Of a stretch of DNA of 44,038 nt, positions 1,072 to 43,631 are shown in pieces. The notes beneath the pieces were generated by a model. The model was given only the letters and a program-made list of their open reading frames with translations, did no database searches and was not told the DNA's origin. Made by a program: the position numbers and the translations under genes. The DNA is from a virus: positions 1 to 44,038 of IMG/VR virus record IMGVR_UViG_3300021962_008254, one strand, 5' to 3'. Position 1 is the stretch's first letter; every line of letters starts with the position of its first letter.

Positions 1072-1798
1072 AGACCAGAGATTCAATATGATCAAATAGT
1101 TTTATCCTGGCATTTATAGCCTCAATCGCTGCTTTTTCTGCCCAAAGAGCCTTGAACGGATCATTCTTGCAAAAATATTCAACTAGCATCTGAGCTTTTG
1201 GGCCGTGATCATCACCATCGACCTCGATATGACGTTCCAAGTAATAGTAAAACTTAGGAGCATCGAGGCTAGAAATATTGAGCTGTCTAAGGATTCGCTT
1301 AAACATTGCTGGGATTATTGTTTCTCTCCCATAGCAAAACGAAGCTGCAACGCAATGGGGTCCTTGATCTATTGTATGGAATGTTGTTTCAACAAATGCA
1401 CGGGACGGTTCCGGAATAACTGCAAAGTCTTTTGCTTCCAAAAACCGAACAATTGCTTCTGTATTTGCTCCAACTTCTTCCATTGCTTGGAGATATAAAT
1501 CAAAATGGCTTATTGAAGATTTACCATCAGGAGTCAAATCAGACTCTTCGCATAATACAATCTCGTTAATCGTTCTTGCTATTGAGCTACGAGTACCAGT
1601 TGTTGGTACCCAAAAATTAGTAGACGGACACGCACTATGCTGTAACGACTTGATCAAACTCATAAAATCCCAAACTGCAAATACATGGTGTTCCATGAAT
1701 ATCCGCAAATCGTCGATTGTTTGGATTGAGTTTGTGACTAATAATGAGTGATTAGATAAAGATTGCTGTTTAGCAATAATACGGGATGTGTCGATCAT
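1067..1798 (-). CDS. DUF3050 family protein, haem-oxygenase-like fold, putative metal-dependent oxidase/oxygenase
   Basis: A 243-residue protein. The true start is taken as the ATG at 1798-1796, which overlaps the radical SAM stop as ATGA; a longer open frame begins inside that gene and is unlikely. Visible family motifs are MEHHVFAVWDFMSL (residues 35-48), RTINEIVLCEESD (75-87), SHFDLYLQAMEEVGA (97-111), and RHIEVDGDDHGPKA (189-202). These are the hallmark blocks of DUF3050, a helical family in the haem-oxygenase-like superfamily, which includes non-haem di-iron oxidases. Candidate ligands are H38, E79, H98, E192, D194 and H198; this assignment is inference. Translational coupling to a radical SAM enzyme suggests both act on one substrate. 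The true substrate is unknown. Confidence 0.7.
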   Translation of the reverse strand: MIDTSRIIAKQQSLSNHSLLVTNSIQTIDDLRIFMEHHVFAVWDFMSLIKSLQHSACPSTNFWVPTTGTRSSIARTINEIVLCEESDLTPDGKSSISHFDLYLQAMEEVGANTEAIVRFLEAKDFAVIPEPSRAFVETTFHTIDQGPHCVAASFCYGRETIIPAMFKRILRQLNISSLDAPKFYYYLERHIEVDGDDHGPKAQMLVEYFCKNDPFKALWAEKAAIEAINARIKLFDHIESLVL

Positions 1799-3105
1799 AC
1801 ACTTGCAATTCCCGTTTCCTTCAATTCTACATCTGAACCAAATAACATCTTGAATCCTGCATTCTGTACGCTTCCATACCATATTTTTTCAACACGGCAA
1901 TTCTTCAGAAATACATCAGTCGGAAAATCAATCGGACATGAACTCTTACATAACCGGCGAACTTGACAATCAGAACAGTGTGTCTTTTTTCTATCCAAAG
2001 CAAGCGATACTATCTTTATCCCTTTGATATTAGATATATGGCCACCATTGTATTTTTCGTGTGTGTGAGGACATAATCTAGCGTTTCCCCTCAAATCCAC
2101 ACTCAATATATCTTTTGCATCAGCTCCGCAATTAGTTGTAATTGTTATTGGAAGCTCATTCTTCACAGATTGCGCAAACTTAATTGCACCAGTATCCCCA
2201 TCAAAAATATTAGATTGTAATATAGGTAAAGTTTTAGATCTTCCGTGCTTCTTCAACTGCTCTATTGCGGCATTCATGTAATCTTCTGTTATTATTTTAA
2301 ATGCTTTCAAATTTTCACCATGTATTACATGCTCAAAACTATTCTTGGAGTCTGTATCATCATATGTTCTACCGAGCGTAAAACTAATCTTACAATTCTT
2401 CAACTGGTTATCAACAGCCAGCTTATAAAAATAATCATTTATATCAAATAGATTAAAGTTTGTATTACTTACTACAGGATTAAAACTATATTGAAATTTT
2501 GGGTACAATAAATCTAGTTGCTTTAATACATCTACAACTTGCGGACGTTGGAATATATCCTCGCCCCGCAATGATTCCTGACCTGGTCCATCGTGACTTA
2601 TTCCCATTGCAACTGGCGACTTCAATTGCTTGAAGAAATCAACATGCTTCTGTCGTAGAGCACTTCCGTTAGTGGAAATATACCACGATATTTTCTCACT
2701 ATCAAAATGGGTCATTATTTTGACCATATCATTCCAATACAAAAATGGTTCTCCACCCCACAATTCAATACGAGTTAGCAGAGACGTATCAAGATACTTT
2801 TCTACCGATTCAAGGAAATCAGGAGTCCAGAAATTCTCTGGTCGCTCACTCGGATCTCCAATATCCTTCTGCATACAGTAGGAACAAGAATAATTGCAAG
2901 CGTGTCCTAATAGAATGCGAAGCCCAACAGGCTTATTAGTTTTTGTTATAACACCGTTTTGAGCTGCTTGCTCAGCATACCATTCTTCGGAGTGGATCGG
3001 TGAAGCGGATAACGACTGTCCTTCCGCGTTTACAATGGAGTTTCTATCGTTGTTATAATAGAATGTTTGACCGGTTTGTTTAATCTCAAATTTAGCAAAA
3101 GACAT
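1795..3105 (-). CDS. Radical SAM/SPASM peptide-modifying enzyme
   Basis: A 436-residue protein. The radical SAM cluster motif is C70-x3-C74-x2-C77 (HACNYSCSYC), followed by GGEP at 117-120 and STNGSAL near 144. The C-terminus has a full SPASM pattern: C326, G340-x4-C345, C377-x2-C380-x5-C386-x3-C390 and C403, giving ligands for two auxiliary 4Fe-4S clusters. SPASM enzymes install thioether, C-C or other cross-links or oxidise side chains in peptides and proteins (RiPP maturases, anSME). The N-terminal 55 residues could be a substrate-recognition part. It lies directly after the 130-residue HxH protein and is coupled to DUF3050. No clear ribosome-binding site precedes the ATG. Confidence 0.88.
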   Translation of the reverse strand: MSFAKFEIKQTGQTFYYNNDRNSIVNAEGQSLSASPIHSEEWYAEQAAQNGVITKTNKPVGLRILLGHACNYSCSYCMQKDIGDPSERPENFWTPDFLESVEKYLDTSLLTRIELWGGEPFLYWNDMVKIMTHFDSEKISWYISTNGSALRQKHVDFFKQLKSPVAMGISHDGPGQESLRGEDIFQRPQVVDVLKQLDLLYPKFQYSFNPVVSNTNFNLFDINDYFYKLAVDNQLKNCKISFTLGRTYDDTDSKNSFEHVIHGENLKAFKIITEDYMNAAIEQLKKHGRSKTLPILQSNIFDGDTGAIKFAQSVKNELPITITTNCGADAKDILSVDLRGNARLCPHTHEKYNGGHISNIKGIKIVSLALDRKKTHCSDCQVRRLCKSSCPIDFPTDVFLKNCRVEKIWYGSVQNAGFKMLFGSDVELKETGIASV

Positions 3106-3122
3106 AATATAAGTGTATTGGG

Positions 3123-3515
3123 TTATGCGTCGTCGATAGCGTGGTTGTGGCTTCGTAATACATTTGCTGCATTAACGTGACCATTGATATAAGATGTTGT
3201 AATCACATCTCCCGCAGAAACAGTACCTGGATCAGAATATCCTCCTAGTATAGAAGTGTCTACATCTCTTGATCCGGTGCTACCATTATTACCGTATGTT
3301 TGAATTCTATCGTAATCAGTGTATCTGTGATAATGTCTCTGAAAAGCATTCATCAACGTGCGCAAGTTATTCACATCGCTTGCTAAAACAGTGTTGTTTG
3401 TGACGAAGCGAGACCTCAGGTTGCTTCTTATGCTCGATTGTTCCGTGCTAAGTTCGTTACCTGTGTCGTTATTTTTTGGATATCCAGCTTGTTGACTTCT
3501 TTCTGATTGAGCCAT
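3123..3515 (-). CDS. Small HxH-module tail protein, candidate modification substrate
   Basis: A 130-residue, cysteine-free protein flanked on both sides by radical SAM genes. It has a polar N-terminus and two related modules: VLASDVNNLRTLMNAFQRHYH (about 43-63) and DVITTSYINGHVNAANVLRSHNH near the C-terminus, which ends AIDDA. The pattern D-x-I-T-x4-N/F-x-n-L-x2-H-x-H resembles the 64-residue protein at 7359-7553. HxH motifs coordinate iron along the trimer axis in the T4 gp37 needle, so a small trimeric fibre part is possible. Its ribosome-binding site, AGGAGG, is the strongest in the cassette, which suggests high expression as expected for a substrate or structural protein rather than an enzyme. 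Confidence 0.65.
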   Translation of the reverse strand: MAQSERSQQAGYPKNNDTGNELSTEQSSIRSNLRSRFVTNNTVLASDVNNLRTLMNAFQRHYHRYTDYDRIQTYGNNGSTGSRDVDTSILGGYSDPGTVSAGDVITTSYINGHVNAANVLRSHNHAIDDA

Positions 3516-3530
3516 ATTCCCCTCCTAAAG

Positions 3531-4652
3531 CTATTTATCCCACTGAATAATCGGGATCGTCTTAGCGCCGGAATTTGGTTTAATTAACCCGTATTGGAAG
3601 CTTTTAAACCCACTCTGTATTAATTTGTGGTAGAACTTACAATTAGATTTTAACATAAACTCAGGGACAAAGTTAAAATCAGGATTAAATTTAAACTTCT
3701 GAACTTCGTTGAAGTAATCGACAAACTTTTGCTCAACTTTATTTGTTGGTTTGATTTCATTAGCAAATTTACCGTATAGCTTTTTCTTGCCGCTCAACAT
3801 CTCATACATTAGTTCAGTAGGATTGAAGTCTTGATCTTTATCAAATATGAAAAACGGATCCCAATCAATATCGGTAGCATCATCAATACTATAAAAGAAG
3901 CGATCGTTGTACAAGTGGATTGCTTCTCTGTATATTTGGTATGTTTTATTATTGTGACTTAGAACGTATGTATTTTGGTAATCATACTTACCTTCTAAAT
4001 CATATCTTGCGTTGGCATCATCTCTAAGATCGTGTTGTAAGCAGTTATACAATCCCCGCTCATTCATCCAATTGACAATCTCCTCTACTTGAGGAGGAGC
4101 AGGTCCGTCTGTTGTTCGTATAATCTTTATTTTAGCAATGTTGTATTTGGAAGCATAATCATTCAACACTTCTATAATCTGTTTGTTTTTATTTGTCTTT
4201 ACAAGGAAGTGGTCGCTGAGACTGATATCCGCCATACCCTTCATTGTAATATTATCCATCAGCGTCTTACGATGAGTTAATACAGCATTATCAGTCATAC
4301 CATATTCAAATATCTCTCCGTGTGATTTGTACCACTCAAATATGTATGGATAATTGAGACGGAGGTACGTTAGATCATCGTTTGTACGAATTACGTAGAA
4401 GTGATCGAACACATCATACCAGCGCTGCTCATCTTTTGTTGATATGATAGAAGGAACGTTCTGAGGAAACGTAGAGAACCCTTGTTTTAACTTATCCTTA
4501 ATATAACAAATCTGACATCCAGCATGACAAGTATATTTGTATGTTGGAGTAAAGTAAAGATCAAACGTTAGAGGACTTAAAGAGTCTTCTCTGAGAAAGT
4601 ACGTAGTATGATCTTGGTATTGCTCAAAGTCTTCTCCGACATATTCACTCAT
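3531..4652 (-). CDS. Divergent radical SAM-like protein
   Basis: A 373-residue protein with a CX3CX2C motif at C42-HAG-C46-QI-C49, near the N-terminus where radical SAM proteins carry their cluster ligands. No GGEP motif is recognisable, and only isolated cysteines occur later (for example NC near residue 209 and SNC near 342), so there is no SPASM domain. It overlaps the stop of the preceding radical SAM gene by 8 bases and is clearly cotranslated with it. It may be a degenerate or specialised partner, for example a substrate-binding subunit of its neighbour, or an active enzyme with a private fold variant. The assignment rests mainly on the cysteine motif and context. Confidence 0.6.
   Translation of the reverse strand: MSEYVGEDFEQYQDHTTYFLREDSLSPLTFDLYFTPTYKYTCHAGCQICYIKDKLKQGFSTFPQNVPSIISTKDEQRWYDVFDHFYVIRTNDDLTYLRLNYPYIFEWYKSHGEIFEYGMTDNAVLTHRKTLMDNITMKGMADISLSDHFLVKTNKNKQIIEVLNDYASKYNIAKIKIIRTTDGPAPPQVEEIVNWMNERGLYNCLQHDLRDDANARYDLEGKYDYQNTYVLSHNNKTYQIYREAIHLYNDRFFYSIDDATDIDWDPFFIFDKDQDFNPTELMYEMLSGKKKLYGKFANEIKPTNKVEQKFVDYFNEVQKFKFNPDFNFVPEFMLKSNCKFYHKLIQSGFKSFQYGLIKPNSGAKTIPIIQWDK
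3532..3539 (-). promoter_or_regulatory. Late-promoter-like GATAAATA upstream of the HxH protein
   Basis: One base from the T4 late consensus (G for the first T). It lies 17 bases before the ATG at 3515, with AGGAGG between them, so the transcript would start at the ribosome-binding site. The same octamer recurs at 509, 12804, 19430, 39570 and 43609. Chance matches are possible in AT-rich DNA. Confidence 0.35.
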
Positions 4653-5709
4653 CTATTCCTACCCAATGTAATAATGAAGGTTTCTGGTTTAATTTGTTCA
4701 TATGCTTAACAAGCACGTTGATGGTTTGATAAAACTTAACGCAGTTTCCTTTTGGCTCTTCGTCAAACATTTTATAGAGATACTTCAAACCGCAATACTG
4801 ACGAGAGATGCAATTAGTGCAACCCGGTCTAATTAGAGACTCTTCATTTCCTTGTCTATACAATTCAATTCCGTTTCTCCATTTACCGACTCTAAATTCA
4901 TCTCGCTTATATTCGAGGAAATCAAATTCAGGATATAGATATCCGTCCGGTCCAAGTATTAGCTTTCCATGGTTGTCCAAATATTGTTTGTCAATATCCG
5001 TATAGTTTCCGTCAATATAACATACAACACCGTTTACATATAAAGTATGTAACATCTTAGAAAAGTCATACATGAATCTATCGAGATTTAAATCATCTAG
5101 TAGAACTTTGAACTTCTGTTTACCGCGATAATGTCTAAGAGGAATCAAGTTAACAACATTACAACGAAGGAGTTTACAAGCATTAACTATTGCTGTAGAA
5201 GTTTCTAAGTCTAATGCTCCGGGCGTAGAGATGGGAACAACAAATTGGAACAAGCAGTTTGTTCGAGTGCCATGCAATACCTTAGCAACAGCTTCTAAAT
5301 CAACCGGGGCTCTATTAATATCTTGATAGTTGAAATCGTAGCTGAAAGTAATCTGACATTTACCGGCCCACTTTTCAAAAAACCAAGCATTCTCTGCAAT
5401 CAACGAACCGTTGGTAGTCATTGCGAACTTACAACCAATCTTTTCCAAGTGGGGAGCTATCTTGTCAAGTATGTGATCCATCTTCTTAACATATAGCATT
5501 GGCTCGCCGCCATGGAAGCTCACATATTGAAGCGGATGCTCGCTCTCAACAACTGCATCCATAAAAGCAACAATATCATTAACAGCTGTACTCTTCATAT
5601 TCTGAGAACCAACATCTTCTCTTATGAATGCTCTATCACAATACACGCAATCAAAGTTACACGTATCGCCAAGATAGATTACTACACTTTTAATGTTAGT
5701 TAAATCCAT
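4645..5709 (-). CDS. Radical SAM enzyme with short C-terminal cysteine (twitch-like) region
   Basis: A 354-residue protein read from the ATG at 5709, which has GAGAAG 5 bases upstream; an in-frame ATG at 5721 lacks such a site. The cluster motif is C17-x3-C21-x2-C24 (DTCNFDCVYC), with GGEP at 67-70 and TTNGSL near 101. The C-terminus has GCTNC, a further C in RQYC, and a final NC, a reduced SPASM/twitch arrangement consistent with one auxiliary cluster. It overlaps the end of the 548-residue radical SAM gene upstream (14 bases) and the divergent radical SAM gene downstream (8 bases). The three therefore look like one translationally coupled enzyme set. Confidence 0.85.
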   Translation of the reverse strand: MDLTNIKSVVIYLGDTCNFDCVYCDRAFIREDVGSQNMKSTAVNDIVAFMDAVVESEHPLQYVSFHGGEPMLYVKKMDHILDKIAPHLEKIGCKFAMTTNGSLIAENAWFFEKWAGKCQITFSYDFNYQDINRAPVDLEAVAKVLHGTRTNCLFQFVVPISTPGALDLETSTAIVNACKLLRCNVVNLIPLRHYRGKQKFKVLLDDLNLDRFMYDFSKMLHTLYVNGVVCYIDGNYTDIDKQYLDNHGKLILGPDGYLYPEFDFLEYKRDEFRVGKWRNGIELYRQGNEESLIRPGCTNCISRQYCGLKYLYKMFDEEPKGNCVKFYQTINVLVKHMNKLNQKPSLLHWVGIDE

Positions 5710-7342
5710 GGTTCTTCTCATTAAATATCATAGTGGAAATCAATTGCAAATAAAATACTCTTATCTCAGGCGTATCTCCATCAACAACTTTTGGTAACAT
5801 ACCAGTTCTTTTGGCTAACGATCTATACAACTCAACTGCTTCCATCTCACCACTATCGTTCGATTCTCCACTTATGTGCGACCAAATATCTAATAAAATT
5901 TGCTTATATGGTTTATATTGTTTATCTTTAGAAGGATCGAACATTACTCTATGGCCAGTCTTCAAGTACTCCAACATATAGTCAGCTCCAGCTGCTATTG
6001 TTTGCTGCTCACCTTCAAGTTGTAGTTGTTGGAGTCTAATTTCAAACAAACGACGAAATTGTTTCTTTGCGACATCTGCTTGTAGATCAAGATATAACTT
6101 TACAATCTCTTGACACATATCATCTGGTCTGAACATACGTGGACCAGTATCAATATTACCAGCCGGACATTGGTAACACATACTTTGATAATCACAAGCC
6201 TTGCATTGCTCTTCTACTTCAAACATCTCGTTGTAGATTTTCTGAAACTTTATGTAACGGTCTACATACACTCTATCTTGTAATATGTTACCGAGGATAG
6301 TTTCGTGAGCAGCAGCTTTTTGGTTTGTAAAGAAATAACAACCTGAGAAGTCTCCACTACCATCAATAGCAATCATATCAGAACCAACCATACAGTTGTT
6401 ATCTTGCTTCTCTCCTACTCCCTCACTAAACAACACGGTCAAGTCTTGATACTTGTCTAAACATCCGAGTATTGCCTCGCGCATCATACTCCAATTATCC
6501 TTACTCCATTTAATATACCCGCGTTTTGAGTCGAGAACTAAAGGGTGAATAATTAAACGCTTAACTCCCTTTGAGTAAATTGATTCTATAAATTCGTGTA
6601 GACTATCAGCAGTCTCTTCAGATAATGTACAGCGGATTGTCAGTCTTGCTCCGACGTTCGGTATCTTAGTGATACGTTCAACATTGTGAAGGATTGTATC
6701 TAATTGCTTTTGTGTGATCTCTCTGTAGTCTTTTTTGAGATCCATTGTATCGAGGCTAATCAACATATACGTGTACTTTTTGTTAAAGTACATATCAATA
6801 AAATCATCATCTAGTAACAACCCATTCGTACAAATAGAGATCCCTGTACCAATATAATTATTCCAATTAGCGTTCAACTCTTCATCATACGTCTTAATGA
6901 AGTCTTGAATTAGTGGTTTGTGTATTAGTGGCTCGCCTCCGAAGAACTGGAGAATCTTTAACGGCTGTTTGTTAATATTGCTGAGCCAGTCGTATGATTG
7001 CTTTACAGATTCAACCGTGAATCTACCATAATCTTTTTTATGCTGTTCGTAACAATAGCTACAGCTCAAGTTACAAGCATTTGTCAGCAACAAATTCATA
7101 TGAATTAAATTACTGAATAGATGCTTTGCTTGATCAAAACTCTTTACTTGTTCCTCTTCCGACGGAACAATAGTTATTAGTTTATTTTGTTTTTCTAAAC
7201 CGGCAGGGGTAATAATTGTATCGACGGTTGTCTTCAACGTACCATCTTCCAGCTGAACTACTGTTGCAGCATGATTGGCAATACGTTCTTTTTGAGCATC
7301 ATTTAATGTTCTGTATATTTTTACTACGTTCACTTGACTCAT
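5696..7342 (-). CDS. Radical SAM/SPASM maturase
   Basis: A 548-residue protein. The first 80 residues precede the barrel and contain DGTLKTTVDT, and could be a recognition domain. The cluster motif is C90-x3-C94-x2-C97 (NACNLSCSYC), with FGGEP near 134-138 and CTNGLL at 171-176. The SPASM pattern is C317, G330-x4-C335, C380-x2-C383-x5-C389-x2-C392 and C410. Beyond it is a helical C-terminal extension of about 130 residues, longer than usual for RiPP maturases. It starts 16 bases after the 64-residue C-x-C-x-C protein, the layout usual for a maturase next to its precursor peptide. The reaction type (thioether, C-C or other bond) cannot be told from sequence. Confidence 0.88.
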   Translation of the reverse strand: MSQVNVVKIYRTLNDAQKERIANHAATVVQLEDGTLKTTVDTIITPAGLEKQNKLITIVPSEEEQVKSFDQAKHLFSNLIHMNLLLTNACNLSCSYCYEQHKKDYGRFTVESVKQSYDWLSNINKQPLKILQFFGGEPLIHKPLIQDFIKTYDEELNANWNNYIGTGISICTNGLLLDDDFIDMYFNKKYTYMLISLDTMDLKKDYREITQKQLDTILHNVERITKIPNVGARLTIRCTLSEETADSLHEFIESIYSKGVKRLIIHPLVLDSKRGYIKWSKDNWSMMREAILGCLDKYQDLTVLFSEGVGEKQDNNCMVGSDMIAIDGSGDFSGCYFFTNQKAAAHETILGNILQDRVYVDRYIKFQKIYNEMFEVEEQCKACDYQSMCYQCPAGNIDTGPRMFRPDDMCQEIVKLYLDLQADVAKKQFRRLFEIRLQQLQLEGEQQTIAAGADYMLEYLKTGHRVMFDPSKDKQYKPYKQILLDIWSHISGESNDSGEMEAVELYRSLAKRTGMLPKVVDGDTPEIRVFYLQLISTMIFNEKNHGFN

Positions 7343-38536: not shown

Positions 38537-38562
38537 AAAGCCCCTTTCGGGGCTTTCTTTTT
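38537..38562. terminator. Bidirectional intrinsic terminator between convergent operons
   Basis: An 8-bp stem AAAGCCCC/GGGGCTTT (38537-38544, 38549-38556) with a TTTC loop. T-rich bases follow on the plus strand and an A-run precedes it, so it works for both directions. It lies between the propeller gene (ends 38500) and gene 32 (ends 38561). Confidence 0.88.
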
Positions 38563-39499
38563 ACTCTTCAGCAGCGAGCTTCTTGAAGAAGTCCATATTA
38601 TCATCGTCCTCTACGAACGACTCATCTAGAGACTTTTTAGGAGCAGGCTTTGGTGCCATTGTCTTAGCGACAGGGGCAGCAGCTGTTGCAGGCTCATCAT
38701 CCCATGGTGGGGTAGTAGCTTGTGCAGCAGTTGTACGAGCAGCAGCTGGATTACCATCTAATCCAAGAGCTTTGTTTAGACGAGCTTTCAACTCATCATA
38801 AGACTTAAACTCTTTAGGAGCAACAAAAGATTCTAACGAATGCTCTTGCTTCCACAATGCTTCCAACTCTTCATCGTCATTGAATAGAGCTGTTGCTGGT
38901 TCAAACTCAGACTTATCGTAATTGCGATAGCCTTCTACATTACGAATCTTCAACTTGAAGTTTGCACCTTCCCAGAAGTCAAATGGATTGATTTTCTGTT
39001 CATCTTCAAACTCTGGGTTCATAGCGAGTTCGATCTTGTCCCAGATTTTCTTTCCATACTTGTAAAGCATTACTTTGCCTTCGTTTTCAGGATGGGCAGG
39101 ATCTTTCACAACATAGATGTTGGAGATGAAAGAGAGACGGCGCTTGTATTTGCGAACCAATTCTTTGTTCGCTTCAATACCAGAGTTCCACAATTGAGAG
39201 TTGTATTCTGATACTGGATCTTTCTCACCGAGAGTGGTAAGAGACTTTTCGATATACCAGCCACCAGGACCTTGGAATCCATGATCCCAAATACGTACGT
39301 ATGGTTTATCTTCACCATCAGGTGCAGGCAAGAAACGGATGATGGCATAACCATTACCGGCTTTATCTACTTCTGGTTTCCAGAATCGATTATCTTCTTG
39401 TGAACCTTGGGTGGGGGCGTTCAGTTTCTGAACTTCTGTAACGAGCTTGTCGAATTGTGACTTGCTGTTTTTCTTGAGTGAGGCAAATGATGAGCTCAT
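38561..39499 (-). CDS. 32: Single-stranded DNA-binding protein gp32 homologue
   Basis: A 312-residue protein (T4: 301). NRFWKPEVDKAGNGYAIIRFLP (38-59), KPYVRIWDHGFQGPGGWYIEKSLT and KYKRRLSFISNIYVVKDP, then NPFDFWEGANFKLKIRNVEGYRNYDKSEF, form the gp32 OB-fold core. The acidic C-terminal tail (SFVEDDDNMDFFKKLAAEE) is the protein-interaction domain. The sequence contains no cysteine at all, so the T4 zinc site (three Cys, one His) is absent. gp32 coats ssDNA in replication, recombination and repair. The ribosome-binding site is GGAG. A 78-base gap upstream has a GATAAATA and a 12-base palindrome. Confidence 0.93.
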   Translation of the reverse strand: MSSSFASLKKNSKSQFDKLVTEVQKLNAPTQGSQEDNRFWKPEVDKAGNGYAIIRFLPAPDGEDKPYVRIWDHGFQGPGGWYIEKSLTTLGEKDPVSEYNSQLWNSGIEANKELVRKYKRRLSFISNIYVVKDPAHPENEGKVMLYKYGKKIWDKIELAMNPEFEDEQKINPFDFWEGANFKLKIRNVEGYRNYDKSEFEPATALFNDDEELEALWKQEHSLESFVAPKEFKSYDELKARLNKALGLDGNPAAARTTAAQATTPPWDDEPATAAAPVAKTMAPKPAPKKSLDESFVEDDDNMDFFKKLAAEE

Positions 39500-39577: not shown

Positions 39578-40165
39578 TTACTTCATTGTTGAGAATTTGT
39601 CAACAACAATTTGTTTTAGTTTATCCTTATCAAATTTAAGGAATGGTCTGTACTTCTTGCACTTCTTGTACACCATTGGCCAAATAACATCTTCTTCGAT
39701 TTTCTTGTTCCAATGTCTAAAGAAACCACAAAGGTCATTAAGGATAACAATAGTTTCCAATGACACTTTTTTCTGCATCAATAACTTAAGCAGTAAAGGA
39801 TGGTTGGATCCTTCCACTACAAGGTTATCGTTGTAACTCGGGCTGAGATTGTCAAGATCATTTGTGAACACATAGGACAACGATTCCTGACGCTTCAACC
39901 ACGTCTTGTAATTGTTCTCAGCTTGCTGTTCGTTTGCTAAATCACCAACCCAAACATTAGGATTATCTTCAACAATATTAGCAAGGACAAACCTTTCGGT
40001 GTCCTTGTGCTTTGCTAGTTTATTGAAGAAGTATTTGTCATGGCGCATTTCAAAAGACTTGGCATTAGCCCTTGTCTTTCCTCCATAACGAAAGTAATCG
40101 TATGTGTCTGAATTAAAATGATTCTTCAAAGCGACATACAGTTTGTATGCCTCATAACCAGTCAT
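39578..40165 (-). CDS. 59: gp59 helicase-loader homologue
   Basis: A 195-residue protein (T4: 217). YEAYKLYVALKNHFNSDTYD (4-23), MRHDKYFFNKLAKHKDTERFVLANIV (for instance KYFFNKLAKHKDTERF) and NVWVGDLA match the gp59 family. gp59 loads the gp41 helicase on gp32-coated forks. The order 33-x-59-32 is as in T4 except for the inserted cytidylyltransferase gene. The start is 1 base after the stop of that gene. Confidence 0.88.
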   Translation of the reverse strand: MTGYEAYKLYVALKNHFNSDTYDYFRYGGKTRANAKSFEMRHDKYFFNKLAKHKDTERFVLANIVEDNPNVWVGDLANEQQAENNYKTWLKRQESLSYVFTNDLDNLSPSYNDNLVVEGSNHPLLLKLLMQKKVSLETIVILNDLCGFFRHWNKKIEEDVIWPMVYKKCKKYRPFLKFDKDKLKQIVVDKFSTMK

Positions 40166-40166
40166 A

Positions 40167-40622
40167 TTATCGCTCTAAGTGTTGTTTAATGGATTCCGCT
40201 AGGAACACTCTTTGTCTCAAGTCCGTTGTGGAGAATGAGTGAGTTCGTTTATTATACACTATTTGAATATTATTGTCAATGCAATAATCTTTTGCAGTGA
40301 ATTCTCTATCCTTATAATCAGAACCAATCACACGAACATCGATCGGCAATGTTTTGAATAGGTCTTCTAAGTCTTTCTCAGTATCGTAAATTACAACTTC
40401 GTCTACATGACGGCATCCTTTAACCTGAACTTGTCTCTCGACAATGCTCTGTACTGGTTTATTCTTAGATGCTCTATCAATAGAAGGATCAGATTGCAAT
40501 CCGACAATTAAATAATCACAGTGTTGCTTTGCTTCTTCCAGCATTAGCACATGGCCAGCATGAAAAAGATCAAAAGCTCCACACGTAAACCCAACTACGG
40601 GCTTTGGTGTAAAAGGTTTCAT
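40167..40622 (-). CDS. Cytidylyltransferase-like nucleotidyltransferase
   Basis: A 151-residue protein. GAFDLFHAGHVLMLEEAK (15-32) contains the H-x-G-H motif that binds the nucleotide triphosphate. DYLIVGLQSDPSID and RTHSFSTTDLRQRV (with the S-T-T-x-x-L-R signature) complete the glycerol-3-phosphate cytidylyltransferase/RfaE-like fold. It transfers CMP or AMP to a phosphorylated sugar or alcohol. In a phage it may feed CDP-linked precursors for host surface or DNA modification; the substrate is not evident. It overlaps gene 33 by 4 bases and is followed by gene 59 after 1 base. Confidence 0.85.
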   Translation of the reverse strand: MKPFTPKPVVGFTCGAFDLFHAGHVLMLEEAKQHCDYLIVGLQSDPSIDRASKNKPVQSIVERQVQVKGCRHVDEVVIYDTEKDLEDLFKTLPIDVRVIGSDYKDREFTAKDYCIDNNIQIVYNKRTHSFSTTDLRQRVFLAESIKQHLER

Positions 40623-40861
40623 ATAGGTAGTTTTGCAGTTTTAGGAAAATACCCAAGACCCTCAGCATCAAGACGTACCCGCGCTTTCATCTTCGCATTA
40701 CGTCTTATCAAGTCGGCTGCTGTTTCAATCTCAAGTCCAGTCTGACTACAGTAATATAATACTGCGTCAAGATATTCCATTCGTTTTTCCTCAGCGATTT
40801 TTTCAATCGTGACGAGAAAGTCTTGAACGTTTATAATTTCATTAATTTGATCTTCAATCAT
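40619..40861 (-). CDS. 33: Late transcription coactivator gp33 homologue
   Basis: An 80-residue protein (T4: 112). RMEYLDAVLYYCSQTGLEIETAADLIRR (27-54, for instance EYLDAVLYYCSQTGLEIE) and ARVRLDAEGLGYFPKTAKLPI fit the gp33 family, which binds the RNA polymerase flap and bridges it to the sliding clamp for late transcription. Its position beside gene 59 matches T4. Its presence supports use of the TATAAATA promoters in this window. It starts on the stop of the membrane protein gene (ATGA). Confidence 0.75.
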   Translation of the reverse strand: MIEDQINEIINVQDFLVTIEKIAEEKRMEYLDAVLYYCSQTGLEIETAADLIRRNAKMKARVRLDAEGLGYFPKTAKLPI

Positions 40862-41169: not shown

Positions 41170-41742
41170 TTATCTATCCTTATAAAAAATATGTTGACCT
41201 ATTTTAGTAACTCGCTCTTTGTTCCATTTTGGATTGACGTAATCCGCATGGTAGTATAGAGCCTCTTTCAAACCATCGAGTCTAAACCCCTCGAACAATA
41301 CTTTCTTTGCTACAGCCTCACTCTCATCCCACATTTTAGGATGAACTGGTCTTGTCTTATATGTCGATTCACAAAACCACGAAAACTGGCAAACGACTTT
41401 ATCGTAGAATATATTTCGTTGTTGTACCACACCGCAAACAGTTTCTGGAAATTTGCCACTATTCATTCTATTCATAGTGACTTGTGCCACAGCGACCTTG
41501 CCTTCAAAAGGCTCTGATGCTGCTTCCCAATAAATGTTCTGCGTCAGGCATTGCATTTGTTGCTCTTTCTCCTTGACGGACATATGAGCTGGTAGGCCTG
41601 TCATTTTAGTGTAGTTGTCCATTCTGACGTTGACTGCTGTGTTAAGTAACATAGCGACTACTAAAAGACCTACGATGAAGAAAAATCCTTTGAACATAAG
41701 TTCGAAGTTTTTAAGCATAGGCGCATAAGATGTCCTATTCAT
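41170..41742 (-). CDS. SleB-type cell-wall hydrolase (endolysin) with N-terminal membrane anchor
   Basis: A 190-residue protein. Residues 18-36 (KGFFFIVGLLVVAMLLNTA) form a membrane segment or signal anchor. The catalytic domain begins CLTQNIYWEAASEPFEGKVA (65-84), with E73 as the likely catalytic glutamate, and continues VAQVTMNRMNSGKFPETVCG, QFSWFC and YYHADYVNPKW. This is the SleB/lytic transglycosylase-like hydrolase family, common in aquatic phages. A signal anchor suggests export by Sec and release by holin or membrane loss. The ribosome-binding site is a full AAGGAGGT. It is the first gene of a run with the candidate holin, gene 33 and the cytidylyltransferase. Confidence 0.85.
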   Translation of the reverse strand: MNRTSYAPMLKNFELMFKGFFFIVGLLVVAMLLNTAVNVRMDNYTKMTGLPAHMSVKEKEQQMQCLTQNIYWEAASEPFEGKVAVAQVTMNRMNSGKFPETVCGVVQQRNIFYDKVVCQFSWFCESTYKTRPVHPKMWDESEAVAKKVLFEGFRLDGLKEALYYHADYVNPKWNKERVTKIGQHIFYKDR

Positions 41743-42804: not shown

Positions 42805-43257
42805 TTAGAACGAATACTTCAAGCCAGCAGTAACGTTGCTACCGTTGAATTGATCTACTCGCTTTTGACCTATCTGATATTTATAGTCAGCAGTCAATGC
42901 TAATTGTTTAGATAGTGGGTATGATGCACCAGCACCAACAAGAGCGGTGTAGCCATCACTTGTCGTACCTTTGTTGTCTAGCCATGCACCGCCGGCTTTA
43001 ACAGCAACGGTTGTGCCAGCAACTTTAGTAACATCATAGGAGCCGATCAATGACCAACGGTTTTGATCTACACCACTACGGAATGCATCAAACCCAGCTT
43101 CAATTCCAACTGCGCCAGTCTTTTGGCCAATTGTGATACCGGTGTTGTTACGATCAGTACCAGTGAATGAGCGGCCTGCGTTGATACCTACTTCGATTGC
43201 TGATGCAATGCCGGATGTAGTAAGCAAGGCAATAACTAATGCTAATTTCAATTTCAT
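42805..43257 (-). CDS. Outer-membrane beta-barrel protein (Ail/OmpX/Lom-like) with signal peptide
   Basis: A 150-residue protein. Residues 1-20 are a classical signal peptide (MKLKLALVIALLTTSGIASA, cleavage after SA). The mature part is alternating beta-strand sequence (EVGINAGRSFTGTD, GITIGQKTGAVGIEAGFD, QLALTADYKYQIGQKR, NVTAGLKYSF). It ends in the aromatic F that marks a BAM-targeted outer-membrane barrel of about eight strands. Phage-encoded barrels such as lambda Lom alter the host surface, for example to block superinfection. It has a ribosome-binding site AAAAAGGT and lies after the tmRNA. A host-derived receptor decoy is also possible. The function is inferred. Confidence 0.75.
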   Translation of the reverse strand: MKLKLALVIALLTTSGIASAIEVGINAGRSFTGTDRNNTGITIGQKTGAVGIEAGFDAFRSGVDQNRWSLIGSYDVTKVAGTTVAVKAGGAWLDNKGTTSDGYTALVGAGASYPLSKQLALTADYKYQIGQKRVDQFNGSNVTAGLKYSF

Positions 43258-43289
43258 AAAAAATACCTTTTTTGTTATTAAACATAATG

Positions 43290-43321
43290 GCTAGTTGATT
43301 CTGTTTCCAAGTTCAACTAGC
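43290..43321 (-). other. 9-bp hairpin after the tmRNA tag region
   Basis: A perfect 9-bp inverted repeat GCTAGTTGA/TCAACTAGC (43313-43321 with 43290-43298), 14-base loop, about 19 bases after the tag stop. It has no adjacent T-run, so it is more likely the 3' structural stem of the coding piece than a terminator. Termination may occur downstream near 43270. Confidence 0.5.
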
Positions 43322-43339
43322 AAAACTCATGCAGTGCAA

Positions 43340-43372
43340 TTAAGCAGCTGCTAGGAATAACTCATCGTTTGC
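43340..43372 (-). other. tmRNA tag reading frame
   Basis: Ten codons GCA AAC GAT GAG TTA TTC CTA GCA GCT GCT and TAA, encoding ANDELFLAAA. The resume codon GCA is preceded by ATAACT, analogous to AUAGUC in E. coli tmRNA. The tag resembles ANDENYALAA of proteobacteria and ends in hydrophobic Ala residues suited to ClpXP-type recognition. Confidence 0.88.
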
Positions 43373-43608
43373 AGTTATTAATTTTGCTTGATTTACGGTC
43401 ATCGCCTACCGTGTTGCCGTCTCTGCTATCTAACCCTGTCGAAACCATGGCAGGCCCATTAGGAAGAATACTATATCCAGTTCAAGGGCACTCTTTAGAA
43501 TGCGACTCATACTTGCGAACCCACTATAATACTCTTTCTGGTGGACCTGGTGGGAGTCGAACCCACGTCCAGAATTCCTTCGCTTTGAAGGGATTACAAC
43601 AATATCTT

Positions 43609-43616
43609 TATTTATC
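43609..43616 (-). promoter_or_regulatory. Late-promoter-like GATAAATA and sigma70-like -10 upstream of the tmRNA
   Basis: GATAAATA would place +1 near 43603, at the proposed start of the tmRNA transcript. A little upstream, TTGCCC and an extended TGGTATCAT -10, 17 bases apart, form a possible sigma70 promoter just after the terminator of the DUF932 gene. Either could drive the tmRNA. Confidence 0.45.
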
Positions 43617-43631
43617 CAGTATGATACCACA

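Follow-up and report, generated by a model that had tools for sequence, protein, structure and literature searches.

A complete two-piece tmRNA gene of betaproteobacterial type in a T4-like phage lineage

tmRNA is a bacterial RNA that releases stuck ribosomes, and its circularly permuted form, which matures as two pieces, is rare. In phages, two-piece tmRNAs are already known and frequent: one survey found 53 of them among 133 distinct phage tmRNAs, 50 of the 53 coming from marine or aquatic samples (PMC9004378), and the study that introduced the Rfam family RF04321 listed 79 phage tmRNAs of all forms (PMC11915505). The Methylophilales phage Melnitz, a T4-like myovirus (MZ577097; PMC9004378), carries a permuted ssrA gene, which is described as being of the alphaproteobacterial type with a glutamine riboswitch, immediately precedes gp33-gp59 in the vicinity of gp32, encodes the tag ANDNYVPVDYALAA, and has been proposed to serve ribosome rescue or the tagging of host proteins (PMC9004378). 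The betaproteobacterial two-piece tmRNAs, for example those of Cupriavidus and Rhodocyclaceae, are represented by RF01850. Permuted tmRNAs over the cut-offs of both RF04321 and RF01850 are also present in two isolated phages, Alcaligenes phage vB_Af_QDWS595 (OK149171.2, near 55013-55288) and Synechococcus phage BUCT-ZZ01 (ON615601.1, near 116901-117217; tag ANDETFSMALAA), whose records bear no tmRNA annotation at those stretches; annotation thus misses phage two-piece tmRNAs.

The stretch of DNA analysed here (the window) spans a 44,038-base record classed as viral and is a fragment of a T4-like myovirus. A well-supported new example of a phage two-piece tmRNA gene occupies its minus strand from about 43603 to 43275; the gene is complete, circularly permuted and of betaproteobacterial type. 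A sequence-only reading, naming no strand, had proposed a phage-encoded permuted tmRNA at this place, to be given up if covariance models rejected the segment. Two Rfam covariance models match it over their full lengths and far over their curated cut-offs: RF04321 (tmRNA_permuted) at 43601-43340 with 145.2 bits (cut-off 47 bits; E 8.7e-29; model 1-213), and RF01850 (beta_tmRNA) at 43646-43275 with 141.8 bits (cut-off 84 bits; E 1.8e-43; model 1-331). ARAGORN, which is independent of Rfam, agreed with them, calling a permuted tmRNA at 43249-43631 on the minus strand with the tag ANDELFLAAA and a stop. The half with the T arm, acceptor strand and CCA lies 5' of the half that opens the acceptor stem and bears the tag. 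A one-piece tmRNA (RF00023), which is colinear and yields one mature molecule, is ruled out, as the permuted models match over the whole length. The gene comprises the following parts.

43539-43603, minus strand: acceptor piece, the 5' half of the gene (full-length RF04321 and RF01850 alignments, sequence; exact 5' end predicted)
within 43539-43603, minus strand: 5' side of the pairing with the coding piece (RF04321 and RF01850 alignments, sequence)
43566-43550, minus strand: T arm (RF04321 and RF01850 alignments, sequence)
43549-43543, minus strand: acceptor 3' strand, CAGGUCC (sequence)
43542, minus strand: discriminator A (sequence)
43541-43539, minus strand: encoded CCA (sequence)
43458-43538, minus strand: intervening segment, 81 nt (removal expected from known two-piece tmRNAs)
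43275-43457, minus strand: coding piece, from its 5' start to the 3' hairpin (ARAGORN, Rfam; the predicted 3' end is the end of the RF01850 match, 43275)
43457-43451, minus strand: acceptor 5' strand, GGGCCUG, with G3-U70 (sequence)
within 43275-43457, minus strand: UGGUUUCGAC motif of the coding piece (ARAGORN, Rfam, parse)
43340-43372, minus strand: tag frame GCA AAC GAU GAG UUA UUC CUA GCA GCU GCU UAA, ANDELFLAAA-stop (ARAGORN; same tag in viral contig L032)
43290-43321, minus strand: 3' hairpin of the coding piece, GCUAGUUGA ... UCAACUAGC (sequence; aligned to the RF01850 3' stem)

Read on the minus strand, the acceptor stem is complete in the permuted order that had been described, with 7 of 7 pairs between 43451-43457 and 43543-43549, and the G3-U70 pair and the encoded CCA are likewise where the earlier reading had placed them. 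The same GGGCCUG/CAGGUCC stem occurs in the Cupriavidus tmRNA, and the whole model of the betaproteobacterial form is matched by the window; in this the gene differs from that of Melnitz, although both are permuted, phage-borne and carried by T4-like myoviruses. The tags also differ between the two. Melnitz provides a published precedent for the same place in the genome, though several genes lie between the tmRNA and gp33 in the window.

At least 120 stretches in viral contigs matched the betaproteobacterial-type core pattern in a pattern scan, and ARAGORN called a tmRNA in nearly all of those listed. Among the matches listed, 87 distinct viral genes were parsed, 16 unparsable rows being left out. 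Every one of the 87 keeps a full 7-bp acceptor stem with G3-U70, a count to be read with caution as the parse left the spacer after the acceptor stem free (2-5 nt) and chose it for best pairing. Ten different stem sequences occur across these 87 listed genes, and pairing has thus been kept while the sequence changed. CCA is encoded in 84 of the 87 viral genes among the matches listed vs 23 of 63 distinct bacterial copies, 40 of the 63 being without it; its near-constancy would fit a gene independent of CCA addition by the host. These relatives point to selection on the gene, beyond what the E-values of the window matches convey.

The stem reported earlier in the intervening segment was confirmed: GAAAGAGUAUUAUA and UAUAGUAUUCUUCC, within 43538-43458, pair at 13 of 14 positions, two G-U pairs counted. 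In the RNAfold structure, the first 25 bases of the segment form 17 pairs with the last 25, and the stretch of acceptor piece and intervening segment folds better than its shuffles (z -2.73). Across 81 viral relatives among the matches listed, the ends of the segment pair at a mean of 12.1 positions compared with 5.0 in shuffled copies, and the end stem is thus a recurring feature, which seems to belong to a common architecture that holds the halves of the precursor together. The segment has a median length of 83 nt in phages (81 nt in the window) and of 29 nt in bacteria.

The tag frame of the window has a resume codon, a stop and a hydrophobic end (ANDELFLAAA-stop). Its last four residues are LAAA and its last three AAA, an end that could weaken the degradation signal; bacterial copies end in LAA in 34 and in IAA in 19 of 63 distinct cases. 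The ANDELFLAAA coding pattern matched nothing in the bacterial contigs scanned and recurred in the diverged viral contig L032, which differs from the window in its acceptor stem (GGGGGUG/CACUUCC). Conventional bacterial tags have 10 residues in 89 of 94 rows, mostly of the form ANDE-x-F/Y-A-L/I/V-AA, and the five longer tags seem to come from miscalls or unusual genes. Viral relatives mostly carry tags ending in LAA, IAA or MAA.

The phage RNA may instead act as a decoy or inhibitor, binding SmpB and entering ribosomes so as to disturb host trans-translation, or adding a tag poorly recognized by host proteases. Consistent with such a role, mycobacteriophage DS6A has a tmRNA-like RNA that is CDS-less and inhibits tmRNA in E. 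coli (PMC11915505), and the window tag ends in LAAA rather than ALAA and was absent from the bacterial contigs scanned. However, the tag frame is intact with its stop, and the LAA end found in 73 of the 87 viral relatives among the matches listed looks like selection for degradation, so that we regard inhibition as unlikely. An inhibitory RNA of the DS6A type itself was rejected as a candidate, the tag frame being present. A rather unlikely further reading is that phage tmRNA has been re-aimed and is not a spare copy: the altered tag, LAAA here and 22-33 residues in a related phage clade, might switch the protease or adaptor that receives tagged proteins, or let the phage choose which proteins are spared or destroyed.

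Tags of 22-33 residues, for example ANADTFDFSAMSFTGNTVRGAANESRFALAA, were observed in some phage-borne permuted tmRNAs (L004, L005, L013, L018, L020, L028, L029, L031, L036, L040, L042 and about 20 more viral loci), which form one mainly phage clade of 32 rows on the tmRNA tree. The pN/pS ratio of 0.15 over the first 18 codons of 13 distinct long tags points to protein-level selection on the long frame. The 94 bacterial rows contained no convincing counterpart, and the long tag could carry a second function.

A tree of 150 tmRNA sequences (87 viral, 63 bacterial; 184 columns), built by a quick method, requires 3 changes of label between phage and bacterium compared with about 48 in shuffles, though many of its inner branches are weak and the viral and bacterial sets were partly gathered by the same pattern. 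Because of the few label changes, the phage copies appear to form mostly their own lineages, passed on mostly within phages and not as fresh host copies. The nearest rows to the window are the viral contigs L032, L071 and L073, the latter two differing from it by the tag ANDELFAIAA. No more than about 6 kb away from its tmRNA, L071 also carries several tRNAs and, at 120-579, a GOLLD RNA (RF02032, 182 bits). The permuted tmRNA of vB_Af_QDWS595 is set apart from that of the window by its Schitoviridae phage, a different gene order and the tag ANDNVYAAAA. One tmRNA that falls among the phage ones belongs to L170 (CALMJT010000228.1), which is filed as an uncultured Alteromonadales genome and may be a contig of phage origin within a metagenome bin; the proteins of the window phage had no match in the 8 kb of L170 searched.

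The closest bacterial copies found are partial matches at about 80-89%, the best reaching up to 89% over about 85 nt. No hexulose-6-phosphate synthase scored over the cut-off in the three nearest bacterial genomes of the first search, and these three thus do not appear to be methylotrophs using that pathway. The tag, with no match in the bacterial contigs scanned, did not lead to a host. The RNA type makes a betaproteobacterium the likely host, though, as Melnitz illustrates, the type does not always match the host (PMC9004378).

The genes around the tmRNA, all on the minus strand, and a tentative promoter are as follows.

43609-43616, minus strand: GATAAATA, which resembles the T4-type late promoter TATAAATA and is placed to start transcription near 43603 (tentative)
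42805-43257, minus strand: OMP beta-barrel-like protein, 150 aa, with a signal-like N-terminus; next gene downstream of the tmRNA (Pfam OMP_b-brl, YfaZ)
41170-41742, minus strand: endolysin, a cell-wall hydrolase (PF07486, E 1.2e-25)
40619-40861, minus strand: gp33-like late-transcription coactivator (PF16805, 42.0 bits, cut-off 25)
39578-40165, minus strand: gp59 helicase loader (phrog_269, E 3.6e-57)
38561-39499, minus strand: gp32 single-strand DNA-binding protein (phrog_224, E 2.1e-121)

Besides T4-type gp32, gp59, gp33 and the endolysin, the window encodes baseplate wedge and hub and tail tube proteins. Among the matches listed, the relatives with flanking sequence have these neighbours on the tmRNA strand throughout: the endolysin in 49 of 49 with a match, mostly downstream; gp33 in 31 of 31, mostly 1-4 kb downstream; gp59 in 31 of 31; and gp32 in 20 of 20. 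The four genes mostly lie 0.3-6 kb downstream of the tmRNA in these listed relatives. A beta-barrel homologue was found just downstream of the tmRNA and on its strand in 10 of the 10 listed relatives having one; in the window its product scores just under the cut-off for OMP_b-brl (E 5.2e-6) and reaches 23.9 bits for YfaZ (cut-off 23), matched no isolated phage record, and is possibly co-transcribed with the tmRNA. In 35 of 110 viral loci, the protein encoded immediately before the tmRNA has ...ASNIQPA, a CspA-like motif, at its C-terminus, which suggests that a cold-shock-like gene is often co-transcribed with the tmRNA. Elsewhere in the window (1795-7342, minus strand), three radical-SAM-domain proteins (phrog_1802) stand beside unknown proteins at the tail-fibre end, an unusual cargo for a T4-like phage.

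That the gene is phage-encoded, as the sequence-only reading had it, is borne out by the virus record, the T4-type genes on the same contig and a gene order shared by dozens of viral contigs. One might suspect a piece of bacterial DNA that was wrongly assembled or wrongly filed as viral, as the contig is a metagenomic fragment known from its sequence alone. This seems hardly conceivable, however, given the T4-type genes within kilobases of the tmRNA, the second viral contig of 86.6 kb that agrees with the window at every one of the 4,634 bases compared, the synteny in dozens of other contigs, and the merely partial resemblance of the closest bacterial copies found. A functionless remnant of a host chromosome, left for example by imprecise excision at an ssrA attachment site, would agree with tmRNA genes being common integration sites (PMC11915505) and with the ssrA fragments that occur in prophages (PMC9004378). 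Nevertheless, the gene is complete, the acceptor stems have all been kept, the phage lineages stand apart from the sampled bacteria, the genome site is conserved across diverged phages, and no integrase was found in the subset of window proteins scanned; a remnant is thus very unlikely, and a host copy or remnant was rejected on the tree and the synteny.

Late-promoter-like octamers number 12 on the minus strand of the window and none on the plus strand, and for 8 of the 12 a gene starts no more than 150 nt downstream (binomial p 3.5e-5). As a general feature, a T4-type late promoter was rejected, the octamer being upstream of just 12 of 80 relatives' tmRNAs. Other relatives have a sigma-70-like promoter or none that is evident, and no own promoter conserved across relatives was found in the upstream regions of the 80. 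Several start right after the stop codon of the upstream gene, and those tmRNAs are thus probably cut from a longer message. Excision would then split a polycistronic message, and the processed structure might serve mainly to control the transcript of gp33-gp59-gp32 or of the lysis genes in cis, its work as a tmRNA coming second; the conserved position upstream of gp33-gp59-gp32 and the lysis genes, and the many relatives that start directly after a stop codon with no evident promoter, are in line with this. All parts of trans-translation have been kept, however, including a tag that a cis element would not need, which makes a mainly cis-acting role highly improbable.

Considering these results, we propose that the window holds a complete and, most probably, functional two-piece tmRNA gene of betaproteobacterial type, inherited in a T4-like phage lineage and rescuing ribosomes via the SmpB of the host. 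In this scenario, a single precursor would be made, in which the acceptor stem and the long stem of the intervening segment would bring the halves together. Host tRNA-processing enzymes would excise the 81-nt segment, leaving an acceptor piece that ends in CCA and a coding piece that starts with GGGCCUG, base-paired to each other, and host alanyl-tRNA synthetase would charge the product through G3-U70. Host SmpB would carry the charged tmRNA to ribosomes stalled on broken mRNAs, which would be plentiful during infection; the nascent chain would gain A-ANDELFLAAA and then be degraded, and the ribosome would be freed for phage translation, to the presumed benefit of the phage. A model that found SmpB in 10 of 14 controls detected no SmpB gene in 24 phage records, the window and the 86.6-kb record among them, and host SmpB would thus be needed. 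A phage SmpB may lie outside the window fragment, though the matching 86.6-kb record has none.

In the open-access papers searched, we found no description of a conserved betaproteobacterial-type phage lineage with a fixed site or of a long-tag clade. The window gene adds a betaproteobacterial-type example to the two-piece tmRNAs of phages. In many T4-like phages, such genes have stayed at one site, upstream of lysis and late-transcription/replication genes, and what phages gain from a ribosome-rescue RNA of their own could be tested by deletion in a cultured relative.
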